Positions 45,523 to 51,468 of a stretch of 64,000 nucleotides of DNA are shown piece after piece. The position numbers were made by a program, and so were the translations under genes. The notes beneath the pieces were generated by a model that saw only the letters and a list, made by a program, of their open reading frames with translations, did no database searches and was not told where the DNA came from. Source of the DNA: Xanthocytophaga agilis (lineage in GTDB: Bacteria > Bacteroidota > Bacteroidia > Cytophagales > 172606-1); contig NZ_JASJOU010000026.1 of NCBI RefSeq assembly GCF_030068605.1, positions 1-64,000 on the forward strand, given 5' to 3'. The number at the start of each line of letters is the position of its first letter. The stretch's first letter is position 1.

Positions 45523-46056
45523 TGCTTTAACAGGAACTTCTATCGATTGGAAGATAAAGATGCAGCAATTATCTGTGAGAAAGAAATGTATCTCTTATAG
45601 ATGATGTATGTTTAACATTTATTTGGAGGTAAACCGACATTACTTTTTACAAAAGATGTTTTTTTTTGAGAAAAACTCACACCTGAATTACCTGCAACTG
45701 TTTACTTTTGATCCATCTGCCGATACAAGGAAAATTTACTTCTTTTACTTTTTTCTTGTTTTTTTGATTTTCAGGCACTTAGTAACTATCATTGATTTTT
45801 TCTATCACATAATATCATTGTTTTCTTTTGATAATCAGTATATTATATAGGGGTCATATAAAAGTTATAGATGGTATTCTCACATCTGCGTTTGTATTTT
45901 TCTTATTCAAATTTTACTTATCAAGATTTTATCTGATTTGTCTTTTCTATGATTTACTACTTTTCATTACGTCTTAAACTTTTTTGAATCTATGTACTCG
46001 GAAAAAGTAGGAAATTCCGGATACCATACTGATTACCAATTTGTCTGAAAAATGAC
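45523..46056. other. Long AT-rich intergenic region (534 bases)
   Basis: It lies between the orphan kinase and the ald terminator. Frames here are T-rich and unconvincing. One TACTTTTG (45713-45720, plus) has the -7 form but no -33 and no gene in range, so it is probably chance. No RNA gene was identified. Confidence 0.5.
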
Positions 46057-46115
46057 ATATATAAAAACAAAGAACCCTATAAATTTAATTTACAGGGTTC
46101 TTTGTTTTTATATAT
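46057..46115. terminator. Very strong terminator after ald
   Basis: A perfect 22-base stem (46057-46078 with 46094-46115) and a 15-base AT loop; the arm itself holds A5 and T5 runs, so it works on either strand. Confidence 0.9.
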
Positions 46116-46123
46116 AGACTTTT

Positions 46124-47254
46124 CTAATGTACTGTTTCCAGTTCCAGGTAATTATTAACATCGACTAATGGTAAATTCCATGCTTCTGCTACACCATTAT
46201 ATACTACGTCACCATTAATAACATTTAGTCCAAGCTGTAATTCGTGATTTTCACGACATGCTTTCTTCCAACCTTTGTTAGCTAATTGAAGTGCATATGG
46301 AAGAGTTGAATTTGTTAGTGCCAGGGTAGAAGTATACGGTACTGCTCCAGGCATGTTTGCTACACAATAATGTACTACATCATCTATGATATAAACAGGA
46401 TCAGCATGAGTAGTCGGCTTGCTGGTTTCAAAACAACCACCCTGATCAATGGCTACATCTACCATCACAGTACCCGGTTTCATAGTTGAAAGCATATCAC
46501 GTGTGATAAGACGAGGTGCTTTGGCTCCAGGAATCAGTACACCACCTATGATAAGATCAGCACTTTGTACCATCTCACGAATATTATATTCATTGGAAAC
46601 CAATGTATCTACATTAGTAGGCATAATATCTTCCAGATAACGCAAACGAGCCAGACTGATATCCATAATCGTTACATTTGCTCCAAGACCAGCAGCCATC
46701 TTTGCTGCTTGAGTTCCTACAATTCCTCCACCTAATACTAGTACATTAGCTGGTTTTACACCTGCTACACCTCCCAAAAGAATACCACGCCCTTTATGAG
46801 TCTTTTCAAGATATTTAGCACCTGCCTGAATAGACATTCGTCCTGCAACCTCTGACATAGGAACCAACAAAGGAAGACTTCTATCTGATTTTTCTACTGT
46901 TTCATAAGCCAGACATATTGCCTTGCTCTTGATCATAGCGTGAGTCAGTTCTTCAGAAGATGCAAAGTGGAAGTAAGTGAATACAAGCTGATTTTCTTTG
47001 ATAAGCCCATACTCACTGGCAATAGGCTCTTTTACCTTTATTATCATCTCCGCAATACCGTATGTTGCTTCAATGGTTGGGAGAATTTCTGCACCAGCCT
47101 GAATATACGTTTTATCGGCAAACCCACTGCCTTCTCCTGCGCCAGCCTGAACATATACCTGATGCCCGTGTTTTTTTAGTTCAGCTACACCTGCAGGGGT
47201 AACTGCTACACGGTTTTCATTGGTTTTAATTTCCTTAGGAACACCAATAATCAT
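46124..47254 (-). CDS. ald: Alanine dehydrogenase
   Basis: 376 residues, family length. MIIGVPKEIKTNENRVAVTP holds substrate-binding Arg15; Lys75 (IKVKEP) and catalytic His96 (FTYFHFAS) are present. The NAD domain starts near ANVLVLGGGIVGTQAAKMA. VDVAIDQGGCFETSKPT is the expected later motif. The enzyme converts L-alanine to pyruvate and ammonia with NAD+ in the cytosol, used in alanine catabolism or reductive alanine synthesis. The gene is divergent from an Lrp/AsnC regulator, the usual arrangement, and has an unusually long predicted leader with hairpins (see 47358-47564). Confidence 0.96.
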   Translation of the reverse strand: MIIGVPKEIKTNENRVAVTPAGVAELKKHGHQVYVQAGAGEGSGFADKTYIQAGAEILPTIEATYGIAEMIIKVKEPIASEYGLIKENQLVFTYFHFASSEELTHAMIKSKAICLAYETVEKSDRSLPLLVPMSEVAGRMSIQAGAKYLEKTHKGRGILLGGVAGVKPANVLVLGGGIVGTQAAKMAAGLGANVTIMDISLARLRYLEDIMPTNVDTLVSNEYNIREMVQSADLIIGGVLIPGAKAPRLITRDMLSTMKPGTVMVDVAIDQGGCFETSKPTTHADPVYIIDDVVHYCVANMPGAVPYTSTLALTNSTLPYALQLANKGWKKACRENHELQLGLNVINGDVVYNGVAEAWNLPLVDVNNYLELETVH

Positions 47255-47357
47255 AATTAAAGAGGAATTTTAATTTGTTGATGAAGTATTTTCTATTTAT
47301 CTGTATCAATACTATTGATTAATCATCTACTTTCTTTTTAAAAATTGTAATTGATTG

Positions 47358-47395
47358 TTTAGACCATTGTATATTTGAAGAAAAAATGGTCTAAA
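47358..47395 (-). promoter_or_regulatory. Hairpin in the ald leader
   Basis: Perfect 10-base arms TTTAGACCAT (47358-47367) and ATGGTCTAAA (47386-47395) around an 18-base loop. It lies about 105 bases before the ald start, inside the predicted leader. It may be part of a regulatory RNA fold. Confidence 0.5.
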
Positions 47396-47442
47396 GCTTC
47401 TTTTACAAAATATTTTTTTACGAAAAGTGTGATATTAAAAAT

Positions 47443-47474
47443 AATACTTCGGAGATTGTAGCCTCCGAAGTATT
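47443..47474 (-). terminator. Terminator-like hairpin in the ald leader (possible attenuator)
   Basis: AATACTTCGGAG (47443-47454) pairs exactly with CTCCGAAGTATT (47463-47474), loop 8. On the minus strand it is followed by ATTTTTAATA, as in a terminator. It lies 53 bases after the predicted minus-strand start near 47527 and about 190 bases before ald. It could end a short RNA of about 85 bases or act as an attenuator. On the plus strand the T-run is weaker. Confidence 0.6.
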
Positions 47475-47533
47475 TCATTTTAGTTTGTTGATACGAGAAT
47501 ATTTGTTGATGAAGTACTGGTCTTTTATTATGA

Positions 47534-47564
47534 CAAAGCTAAATAATGTAGCAATTATTTCCAA
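47534..47564 (-). promoter_or_regulatory. Promoter of ald (or of a small RNA)
   Basis: On the minus strand TTG (47562-47564), 20 bases, then TAGCTTTG (47534-47541): an exact Bacteroidota -33/-7 promoter. Start expected near 47527, 273 bases before the ald start codon. Confidence 0.65.
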
Positions 47565-47670
47565 TAGTGTTTTAATGTTTGGTAAATAAAACTTATTTTT
47601 ATTGTTAATGTAGTAATATTTTATTTTCGGGGTAACTTATAAACTGTTTTTTTAGAAAAATTTTCTTTTT

Positions 47671-48132
47671 ATGGAGGAATTAGATGACCTTGATGTTACA
47701 ATCCTGCGACTGCTTCAGGAAAACGCCCATTATACCAATAAGGAAATTGCTGCCCGATTAGGTATGACTATTACTCCTGTATATGAGCGGATCAAGCGTT
47801 TGGAAAATCAGGGATATATCAAGAAATACATTACTTTACTGGATAAAGAGAAAATCGGTAAAACATTGACATCTTTCTGTAGTGTCTCTTTGCGCCATCA
47901 TACAAAAGATAATGTAGAACAATTTGAAAAAGAGATTCAACAGTTCAATGAGGTACAGGAATGCTATCATGTAGCAGGAGCTACAGATTTCCTACTCAAG
48001 GTGACTGTCAAGAATATGAGTGAATATCACGATTTTGTTCGCAATAAATTATCCACTATTGAAAATATTGGTAATCTAAACAGCTCCTTTGTACTGAATG
48101 AAATAAAATATACTCTTGCTTACGATATTTAG
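47671..48132 (+). CDS. Lrp/AsnC-family transcriptional regulator
   Basis: 153 residues. The N-terminal helix-turn-helix is ILRLLQENAHYTNKEIAARL followed by TPVYERIKRLENQGYIKKY; the C-terminal ligand-binding RAM domain spans about 65-150 (VQECYHVAGATDFLLKVTVK). Members bind amino acids and act as octamers on DNA. Being divergent from ald, it most likely responds to alanine or another amino acid and controls ald; this is inference from layout. The end of the gene is embedded in a perfect terminator hairpin (48131-48179). Confidence 0.93.
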   Translation: MEELDDLDVTILRLLQENAHYTNKEIAARLGMTITPVYERIKRLENQGYIKKYITLLDKEKIGKTLTSFCSVSLRHHTKDNVEQFEKEIQQFNEVQECYHVAGATDFLLKVTVKNMSEYHDFVRNKLSTIENIGNLNSSFVLNEIKYTLAYDI

Positions 48133-48179
48133 TTCCCAATAAGGTAAGTTGATTTAATCAACTTACCTTATTGGGAACT
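48131..48179. terminator. Perfect bidirectional terminator containing the stops of two convergent genes
   Basis: A 22-base exact stem (48131-48152 with 48158-48179) and a five-base loop. The stop codons of the Lrp gene (48130-48132) and of the minus-strand gene (48163-48165) lie in or at its arms. Confidence 0.9.
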
Positions 48180-51100
48180 CATAAGAAACAACGGCATTAT
48201 TGTTCACACCTGCTAGCAGGATTTTTTTACCTGTCGAGGGTGAAAGTGTTTGCAGGCATCGTATATCTCCTTTTAGGTATAAACCTACCTGAGATGGTGG
48301 AACAGAAGTGAAATATCCTTTGCCATCTCCTAAGAGAAGTAATCCGTATGACGCATCATACTTTCCGAATTTTACACGAGTAGTAGACAAATTTCCTGCA
48401 AGGATAAGATCAGGTTTGGAGTCTTGGTTCACATCCTCAGATAAAATTGCGTAGATAGGGGCATATTGTGCTTCAATGGGTAAAGGTTTTAAGATAAGCT
48501 TACTGCCTGTATTTTCAATATAAACAGATTCAGCTCTCTCTGCTTTATGTACCTGGGTGGTTTTTAATAGATCTTCCGTGAAAAAATTTGTTATCTGTGC
48601 TGTAGAGTAGGTAGCATAATTGGTAAATTTTTTTCTGAGGACAGGTATCTGTTCTAACATGTCATCGCGTGAAGCCATCGGATAACTGACATCCCCTACA
48701 TAATAACATAAGATAGGATCAAGAGTCCCATTATCATCAAAGTCTCTATAATATATGGAGGCAGGTTTGTTTACAGATACTTTAATCTGAGAATTTAACC
48801 CTAGATTACCTGCTACAAAATCCAAATCACCATCTTTGTCAAAGTCAGTTGCATGGATTTTATTCCAGAAGCCGGACGAAGGTTCTGAGATCCATTGGGC
48901 TGACTGATCTGTCAGCTTATTTTGTTGTTGAATAAAAACTTTGATAGGCATCCACTCTCCACACACTATCAGATCAGGAGCCTGATCTTTATTCAGGTCT
49001 ACCCAAGTGGCATCCGTAATCATTCCTGCATTTTGTAGTGTAGGAGATATGTTTTGTATTTGGTTACTGAAATGACCTTGGCCATCATTGATAAGTAAAA
49101 AGCTTTGAGGGGACATCGGATATTTTCCTGGTATGAGCCTGCTTCCTACAAACAAGTCTATATCTCCATCTCTATCATAGTCTGACGCTTTGACACAGGA
49201 GCCACTTTCATATTCAACAGGAAGTGCCTGAAGTGTTTTCTGAAAATTACCCTTGCCATCATTGATATACAGCCGATCCTGTAACAATGGATCATTTTTA
49301 TTAAATTCATTGCCTCCACTCACTACATATAGATCCAGATCTTTATCGCCATCACAATCAAAAAATAGCGCATCTGTATCTTCCGATAGACTATCTTGCA
49401 GGAATGTTCTCTGGGGCTTTACTGTAAATTTTCCTGCAGGATACTGAATGAATAGTTTTCCGGATGAACCTTTGGTTCCTGCAATATAAACATCCTCCAA
49501 TCCATCTCTATTTACATCTGCTTTGGCAATACATGGCCCTGATCGGGAAAGCATTTGTGGAATCAAAAGCTGACTCTTGAAGTCGTTAAAGTTGTTTTCT
49601 GTATGGGTATAGGTAATGATATCTTTTCTTTCTGTAAAATATGTTTTGGTAGCCGGAGTGGTGTAATGATACATTGCCTGAGCATCAGATTCTTTTAATG
49701 TAATTGTTTGGTTGGCTTGTAGCCGAGTTATCTTCTGTGTATGATCTGATGGCCAGATAATAATCAATGAGTCAATTGTAGATTCCTGTCCAATACCAAA
49801 ATGTACATTCTGATCTACTGATGATTCATATCCACGAACAGGCATCTGTTCCTGATACTGACATTTGCCTTTTGTATAAATTTTAATTTTTGCGCCGATC
49901 CCAGTGTGATTAAGTTTGGTACCAGTAAGCTTTACTGACAGATAGGTATTTTGTTGCAGGTTTGTACTATTGTTTTCATATATCGAGGCAAATTCATTAA
50001 TGTTATTAACGACCAAATCCAGATCGCCATCATTGTCCAGATCTGCGTAGGCTGCGCCACTCGATACATTCTTTCCTCCAAGTCCCCATTCATCTGTTTT
50101 CTTCGTAAAAGTAAGATCACCATTGTTATGATATATATAGTTTTCGACCTCTGATGAAGGCATTTTTTCAATGATCTGGTTAATAGTGAGCTTTTCTCCT
50201 TTTAGTTGAGTATCAGTAGAGTATTTGAGAAAATCCATGTCAGTATAGTCCCGAACATAGCCATTGGTTACAAACAAATCTTTATATCCATCATTGTCAT
50301 AATCACCAAACAACGCAGCCCAGCTCCAGTCTGTATTGGAAACACCTGCCAGTTGGCCTATCTCGCTGAACGTACCATTGCCATTATTCAGATGCAACAT
50401 ATTTCGCATGTACTGGTAGTGGAAACCTAAGTCTGTGAGCAACTGTACTTTATCATAGTTTTCTGCGCCTGAGGTCATCTTTTGTCTTTTGTTATCTTCT
50501 GGCAACATATCCAGTGTCATAATATCCGGATAACTATCATTGTTATAATCAGCTATATCGGACCCCATCGAGAAAAGAGATGTATGTCCAATCTGCTCTT
50601 TCAGTTTTTCAGAAAATGTGCCATTTTGGTTATTGATATACAGATAGTCCTGTTCATTAAAATCATTGGATATATATATGTCAGGCCAACCATCCATATT
50701 GATATCTGAAACGGCAAGTCCAAGACCAAAACTGAGCACATTGGATATAATTCCTGCTTGTTCGCTTATATCTACAAAATGGCCATTGTCATTTCTATAC
50801 AACTTGTTTCCATAGGCAGGGTTCTTCTGTGTTTTTAGCTCAGCCAAAACTTTTCCAAATCCCGCATATTCACGGGTAGAGTGATTCAAAACAAAAACAT
50901 CCAGATCTCCATCTTTGTCATAGTCGAAAAAACTGGCATGAGTTGAGTAACTATCATCTGCCAGACCATATTCTGCTGCTTTTTCAGTAAAGGTGTTATC
51001 ATGATTATTAATAAAAAGTAGATTTTTTCGTTTTTCAGGATCTATATCTGCAGAGCGACATACATAGATATCCAGCCAACCATCCGCATTGATATCTGCC

Positions 51101-51468
51101 ATTGTAGCTCCTGTACACCAACCCTGTTTCTCTGCTACCTGTGATTGTTGGGTAATATCTTCAAATTCAAGATTTCCCTTATTCAGATATAATCGATTTT
51201 TAACCATGTTGCCGCTAAAGAATATATCCTGAAGCCCATCATTATTAACATCTCCTACGGCTACTCCACCTCCATTGTAAAAGTAGGAGTAACGCATGAT
51301 GTTCATATCCTCTGATTCCTGAATCAGGTTTCTGAAATTTATATTGGTCTGATTTTCTGAGAGCCTTGTGAATAAGGTAGAATGATCAGAGTGATGACAG
51401 GAATAGAATAGAATAAAACAGCTAAGAAAGAAATAGTGTAACCGCTTGTATAGAATAGATACGATCAT
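48163..51468 (-). CDS. CRTAC1-like lipoprotein with FG-GAP/VCBS repeats and an ASPIC/UnbV domain
   Basis: 1101 residues. The lipobox is ILFYSC (Cys24). The chain is a run of calcium-binding-type FG-GAP/VCBS repeats of the form VAVGDVNNDGLQDIFFSGN, spaced 40-60 residues, predicting one or two large beta-propellers. In the middle (about 515-580) is an ASPIC/UnbV domain (NHTGIGAKIKIYTKGKCQYQ, QNVHFGIGQESTIDSLIIIW). Such proteins are on the cell surface and may bind polysaccharides. It overlaps the YdcF-like gene by four bases (ATGA). No T9SS tail is seen. Function unknown beyond binding. Confidence 0.88.
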   Translation of the reverse strand: MIVSILYKRLHYFFLSCFILFYSCHHSDHSTLFTRLSENQTNINFRNLIQESEDMNIMRYSYFYNGGGVAVGDVNNDGLQDIFFSGNMVKNRLYLNKGNLEFEDITQQSQVAEKQGWCTGATMADINADGWLDIYVCRSADIDPEKRKNLLFINNHDNTFTEKAAEYGLADDSYSTHASFFDYDKDGDLDVFVLNHSTREYAGFGKVLAELKTQKNPAYGNKLYRNDNGHFVDISEQAGIISNVLSFGLGLAVSDINMDGWPDIYISNDFNEQDYLYINNQNGTFSEKLKEQIGHTSLFSMGSDIADYNNDSYPDIMTLDMLPEDNKRQKMTSGAENYDKVQLLTDLGFHYQYMRNMLHLNNGNGTFSEIGQLAGVSNTDWSWAALFGDYDNDGYKDLFVTNGYVRDYTDMDFLKYSTDTQLKGEKLTINQIIEKMPSSEVENYIYHNNGDLTFTKKTDEWGLGGKNVSSGAAYADLDNDGDLDLVVNNINEFASIYENNSTNLQQNTYLSVKLTGTKLNHTGIGAKIKIYTKGKCQYQEQMPVRGYESSVDQNVHFGIGQESTIDSLIIIWPSDHTQKITRLQANQTITLKESDAQAMYHYTTPATKTYFTERKDIITYTHTENNFNDFKSQLLIPQMLSRSGPCIAKADVNRDGLEDVYIAGTKGSSGKLFIQYPAGKFTVKPQRTFLQDSLSEDTDALFFDCDGDKDLDLYVVSGGNEFNKNDPLLQDRLYINDGKGNFQKTLQALPVEYESGSCVKASDYDRDGDIDLFVGSRLIPGKYPMSPQSFLLINDGQGHFSNQIQNISPTLQNAGMITDATWVDLNKDQAPDLIVCGEWMPIKVFIQQQNKLTDQSAQWISEPSSGFWNKIHATDFDKDGDLDFVAGNLGLNSQIKVSVNKPASIYYRDFDDNGTLDPILCYYVGDVSYPMASRDDMLEQIPVLRKKFTNYATYSTAQITNFFTEDLLKTTQVHKAERAESVYIENTGSKLILKPLPIEAQYAPIYAILSEDVNQDSKPDLILAGNLSTTRVKFGKYDASYGLLLLGDGKGYFTSVPPSQVGLYLKGDIRCLQTLSPSTGKKILLAGVNNNAVVSYEFPIR

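Follow-up and report, generated by a model that had tools for sequence, protein, structure and literature searches.

The window analyzed here is the whole 64,000-nucleotide stretch at positions 1 to 64,000 of contig NZ_JASJOU010000026.1 of Xanthocytophaga agilis (assembly GCF_030068605.1). It carries ald, encoding a 376-aa alanine dehydrogenase (Pfam AlaDh_PNT_N and AlaDh_PNT_C), and, divergent from it, an Lrp/AsnC regulator gene (Pfam AsnC_trans_reg and HTH_24). A divergent Lrp gene 176 to 354 nt from ald recurs in Spirosomataceae and Flavobacterium. Features of the 273-nt ald leader and its surroundings are listed in Table 1. In what follows, G, L, g and f numbers are our labels for genomes, loci, genera and families, respectively; the genome under study is G000, and its sister genome is G001.

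Table 1. Features of the ald upstream region and its surroundings (window coordinates) and of the candidate sRNA locus on another contig (C9)
Feature	Position	Strand	Description
ald	46124..47254	-	alanine dehydrogenase, 376 aa; predicted target gene
ald promoter	47534..47564	-	TTG (47564-47562), 20-nt spacer, TAGCTTTG (47541-47534); predicted start near 47527
predicted sRNA site A	47501..47516	-	TACTTCATCAACAAAT, at the 5' end of the leader; predicted duplex with own sRNA tail -23.7 kcal/mol; mean unpaired probability 0.69 against 0.45 for the leader
predicted sRNA site B (partial)	47478..47492	-	ATCAACAAACTAAAA; 15 nt exactly complementary to the 5' part of the sRNA tail; predicted duplex -18.4 kcal/mol; less accessible (0.38)
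hairpin 1 with tail	47433..47474	-	12-bp hairpin 47474-47443, then ATTTTTAATA; terminator/attenuator-like
hairpin 2	47358..47395	-	stem 47395-47385/47368-47358; not supported by conservation
predicted sRNA site C	47268..47292	-	AAAATACTTCATCAACAAATTAAAA, ending 13 nt before the ald start codon; contains the second copy of TACTTCATCAACAAAT (47288-47273); pairs along its length with the sRNA tail, one G-U; predicted duplex -28.3 kcal/mol
39-aa ORF	47478-47362		inside the leader; start overlaps the end of site B
probable ald terminator	46107-46065		strong hairpin with T-run after ald
divergent Lrp/AsnC gene	47671..48132	+	regulator gene
inverted repeat	48116-48191		long, near-perfect; between lrp and the gene at 48163-51468; probably a two-way terminator
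candidate sRNA gene	G000:C9 about 280070-280370	-	locus L123; tail at 280070-280160; antisense match to ACTTCATCAACAAA at 280117

The first-pass annotation had described an exact promoter, a perfect 12-base hairpin with a T-rich tail and a second stem upstream of ald, and this observation is confirmed: all three are present where it placed them. The same promoter is found in G001, whose ald is 98% identical and which is the one close relative with a comparable leader, and TAnnTTTG boxes stand at the matching place in front of ald in many relatives. In contrast, the upstream region of G002, whose ald has 88% identity, is unrelated. Hairpin 1 has 12 perfect pairs (13 as counted by the software), and a search for terminator-like sites in positions 46000 to 48600 found 4 against 1.4 expected. 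The hairpin palindrome is unique in the 9.77-Mb genome, which excludes a genome repeat. The leader RNA folds better than all 200 shuffled sequences (z -4.85); its folding was analyzed by minimum energy and by pair probabilities, and in the latter sites A and C are more accessible than average. Hairpin 1 and its T-rich tail are kept in G001, where the hairpin is identical and lies in the longest unchanged run of the 416-nt intergenic alignment (47494-47423, 72 nt). The permutation p value is 0.08 for that run alone and 0.013 for that run together with the second run, 47311-47260, an unchanged 52-nt stretch that contains site C. The second stem, however, has one broken pair and one G-U pair in G001 and is not supported.

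The main feature of the leader had been missed. It holds an exact 16-nt direct repeat, TACTTCATCAACAAAT, with one copy just after the predicted transcription start and one 33 nt before the ald start codon, plus a third, partial copy. In the 9.77-Mb genome the 14-mer ACTTCATCAACAAA occurs only three times: at these two places, and as the antisense of the tail of an intergenic RNA gene on another contig. G001 shows the same three places. Read on its own strand, this gene has a TAnnTTTG promoter box, a tRNA-like body (acceptor CTGTAGG/CCTACAG, D-like and anticodon-like arms, a large variable region, T arm GGAGGTTCGACCCCTTC), a single-stranded tail, TTGGTTTTTAGTTTGTTGATGAAGTATTAAA, and a terminator. 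About 260 nt of it are identical in G001, while the flanks differ. ARAGORN finds no tRNA in the upstream RNA, and a search of Rfam gave no gathering-level match for the sRNA loci; none of the weak matches to L123 reaches its threshold.

Homologues in Emticicia and Flectobacillus were found because they carry the same antisense tail. The core 18-mer of the tRNA-like RNA, CCTCCTGTCTCGGGGGTG, allowing at most 1 mismatch, is present in 231 of 390 Cytophagales genomes (79 of 129 genera), against 1 of 390 for the reversed control, and in 100 of 111 genomes of one family, f10, which includes Emticicia. Seventy-four distinct cores share a consensus fold with 100% pairing in the acceptor, anticodon-like and T stems and with compensatory changes in the variable-region helices, but the anticodon position varies. 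In 95 loci the tail core, AGTTTGTTGATGAAGT, is an invariant 16-nt sequence, while sequence some 6 nt further 3' varies freely, and a terminator hairpin follows. In genera g122 (Flectobacillus-like, based on near-identical leaders), g146 and g53, a TTG-N20-TAnnTTTA promoter stands between the tRNA-like body and the tail, and in several genera a T-run stands in this gap (a terminator hairpin in Emticicia). Judged from sequence alone, the tail can therefore be a separate short sRNA, whereas in this genome and others it is fused to the tRNA-like RNA. In family f19 genomes (L154 to L175), there are two tRNA-like RNA copies about 550 nt apart, one of which carries a different conserved 36-nt tail, AGGTTATTTTGGGTTTATTGTTAATTGACTAAAACC, before its terminator. 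This could be a second seed with its own targets, although it showed no pairing with the two f19 ald leaders tested (z about 0).

In order to determine whether sites matching the tail are a general feature of ald leaders, we examined 99 of them. The motif ACTTCATCA occurs in 22 in sense, in 1 in antisense and in none reversed or complemented, while shuffles give a mean of 0.13. Genera with sites include this one, Emticicia-like g117, Flectobacillus-like g122, g146, g93 and g56. The common layout is transcription start, site, hairpin, sometimes a second site, and start codon. Predicted pairing of each genome's own tail with its own ald leader gives z below -3 in 32 of 88 genomes, with -5.7 in G000 and a best value of -11.9. 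In many genomes with the same tail (Spirosoma-like, Dyadobacter-like, G004 and G006), ald has no clear site, so ald is a lineage-specific target, gained or lost by lineage. The tail is so constant that matched changes between tail and leader hardly discriminate: in G000 the own tail pairs no better than tails of other genera, and only Emticicia-like leaders gain from their own flank.

The hairpin sequences differ completely between genera. In four Emticicia-like genomes, 6 of 12 pairs show changes on both sides, and 95.8% of cells pair, against 85.5% in shuffles and at most 67% when slid. Compensatory changes had been named beforehand as support for both stems; they were found for the first stem but not for the second. 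The first-pass annotation's interpretation, that this could be an attenuator, an alanine-responsive RNA or a small RNA upstream of ald, is partly supported. A long structured leader with a hairpin is real, but T-runs follow the equivalent hairpin only in some lineages (this genus, G191, G324 and G221), so termination is not the shared function. It remains possible that the leader is mainly a cis attenuator, in which hairpin 1 is an intrinsic terminator, ald expression is set by readthrough under the control of translation, a metabolite or a protein, and the repeats are secondary. We consider this unlikely. The hairpin is followed by ATTTTTAATA here, but most related leaders keep the hairpin without a T-run. 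No alanine-responsive RNA family matches, and a search of known RNA families with the leader gave only sub-threshold matches, with no riboswitch or leader family at threshold; the weak microRNA matches came from the inverted repeat at 48116-48191. The 39-aa ORF in the leader is also not a convincing leader peptide: it has one Ala codon, its only homologue is in G001, where the stop is lost, and the differences are mostly amino acid changing. The strongest conserved feature is a pair of sites antisense to the predicted trans-encoded small RNA. There is a small RNA in the story, but the evidence puts it elsewhere in the genome; a short terminated leader transcript would be an additional possibility.

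To look for further targets, we scanned 71 genomes with the pattern TAYACTTCATCAA, written to exclude the sRNA genes themselves, which gave 111 hits against 44 for the reversed pattern; about 44 of the 111 are thus expected by chance. Of 69 inspected sites, 24 have the ATG of an ORF of at least 150 aa within 60 nt downstream on the same strand and 7 on the other strand, most of which lie inside or antisense to coding sequence. The same-strand genes are mostly catabolic or gluconeogenic: ald, pckA (4 genomes), L-threonine dehydrogenase (5 genomes, 4 genera; identity from PDB 2YY7 and others), malate synthase A (2 genera), Glu-type dehydrogenase (2), 4-hydroxyphenylpyruvate dioxygenase (hpd), urocanate hydratase (hutU) and acyl-CoA dehydrogenase. 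Thirty of the 69 sites were chosen automatically and 39 by hand, so these proportions are not unbiased; among the 30 chosen automatically, six of nine same-strand hits are such genes. A homogentisate dioxygenase-like gene (named from its sequence by eye, with no NCBIfam match) lies 90 nt from a site, and type I asparaginase in Emticicia has a related site. Within G000 itself, a 3-mismatch search gave 6 hits against 4 in the reversed control, of which only ald is convincing as a strong target; a ccoG-like gene with 2 to 3 mismatches is at most a possible one.

Some sites matching the tail stand just upstream of terminators or in 3' regions (L450, L414, L451, L189, L200, L196/L197 and L432), including 3' of ald in G410, and are possible sponges. 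One alternative is therefore that the ald leader, or a short leader transcript ending at hairpin 1, is a decoy that soaks up the sRNA so that inducing ald frees the other targets, or that pairing activates rather than represses ald. The presence of two equivalent sites, one of them upstream of the hairpin and away from the start codon, and the sites before terminators in L450, L414, L189 and L200 are consistent with this. However, site C lies at the usual place for translational repression, and single sites 10 to 30 nt before the ATG are the rule in the other targets, so we regard the decoy and activation readings as improbable.

The tRNA-like RNA gene lies next to an Lrp/AsnC gene in the 37 loci with a hit (Cytophagaceae-like f1, f10 and Flectobacillus; L123, L128, L135, L132, L149, L150, L146 and L206 to L235). 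The Lrp/AsnC gene is well conserved (66 to 100% identity) and divergent where the layout was checked; the f19 loci searched gave none. Since divergent Lrp/AsnC genes stand next to both ald and the sRNA gene, the shared sequence could in principle be a DNA operator for these regulators. This is very unlikely, since the sites lie downstream of the promoter, mostly next to the start codon and in one orientation only, the sequence in the sRNA gene is at the 3' end before the terminator, and it is not palindromic.

Based on the sites, their complementarity, their conservation and the recurring targets, all of which are shown by sequence, our best explanation (probability roughly 0.74) is that the ald leader is a post-transcriptional control region and that ald mRNA is a direct base-pairing target of a conserved trans-encoded sRNA. 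That these RNAs are made, that they pair in cells and thereby change target expression, that the effect is repression, and what the signal is are all inferred. In this view, the sRNA, consisting of the conserved tail GGTTTTTAGTTTGTTGATGAAGT plus its terminator hairpin and transcribed downstream of or fused to the tRNA-like RNA, pairs with two complete sites and one partial site in the leader. Site C overlaps the ribosome-loading region of ald, so pairing most likely would block translation and speed mRNA decay. Site A would add a second anchor, and the hairpin would keep the sites apart and single stranded; in lineages with a T-run, including this genus, it may also end some transcripts early. 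Repression is inferred from site position and from cases such as GibS (PMC7366714). The sRNA would belong to a wider regulon of amino acid catabolic and gluconeogenic genes and so probably acts like a catabolite-repression sRNA, and the Lrp neighbors at both loci suggest, again by inference, amino acid signals. A more speculative reading, which is not excluded but which we consider unlikely, is that the tRNA-like RNA senses amino acid supply (for example, through charging or tRNA-processing enzymes) and sets the release or level of its 3' tail sRNA, which then switches off amino acid catabolism and gluconeogenesis genes including ald, in an Hfq-free, Lrp-linked catabolite-control RNA circuit spread through Cytophagales.

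Little is known of how Bacteroidota without Hfq use sRNAs or control carbon-source choice. An sRNA whose 16-nt core does not change across dozens of genera, tied to a tRNA-like RNA and an Lrp gene, with predicted targets in alanine, threonine, glutamate, histidine and tyrosine catabolism, the glyoxylate shunt and gluconeogenesis, would give this group a core metabolic RNA regulator that can be tested directly in cultivable species. Seed-pairing sRNAs are already known; what is new is this RNA family, its tie to a tRNA-like RNA, its depth of conservation in Cytophagales, and the leader with paired sites and a hairpin. We found no description of this RNA in a search of open-access papers, which does not prove that none exists.

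Compared with the His and Trp biosynthesis attenuators, the ald leader likewise has a hairpin with a T-rich tail upstream of an amino acid gene, but it has no codon-rich leader peptide, the hairpin is kept without a T-run in most relatives, and the His_leader match is below threshold (23.9 bits against 49). Spot 42 (Spf) and similar catabolite-repression sRNAs of enterobacteria are also trans-encoded sRNAs with a conserved unpaired pairing region and several catabolic targets. We saw no sequence relation to them, however, and here the pairing region lies in the tail of, or just after, a tRNA-like RNA, in a phylum without obvious Hfq (stated for Bacteroides, which also lacks obvious ProQ, in PMC7366714). 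GibS of Bacteroides thetaiotaomicron (PMC7366714) is a Bacteroidota sRNA that pairs around the start codons of metabolic genes and has a proposed link to catabolite repression, but it is conserved within Bacteroides only, its pairing region is at its 5' end, its targets are different, and it has no tRNA-like domain. In 3'ETS-leuZ of E. coli, a pairing RNA also lies 3' of a tRNA-like structure. There, the trailer soaks up sRNAs, while in the present case the upstream RNA is not recognized as a tRNA by ARAGORN, the tail has its own promoter in some genera, and its predicted partners are mRNA leaders.
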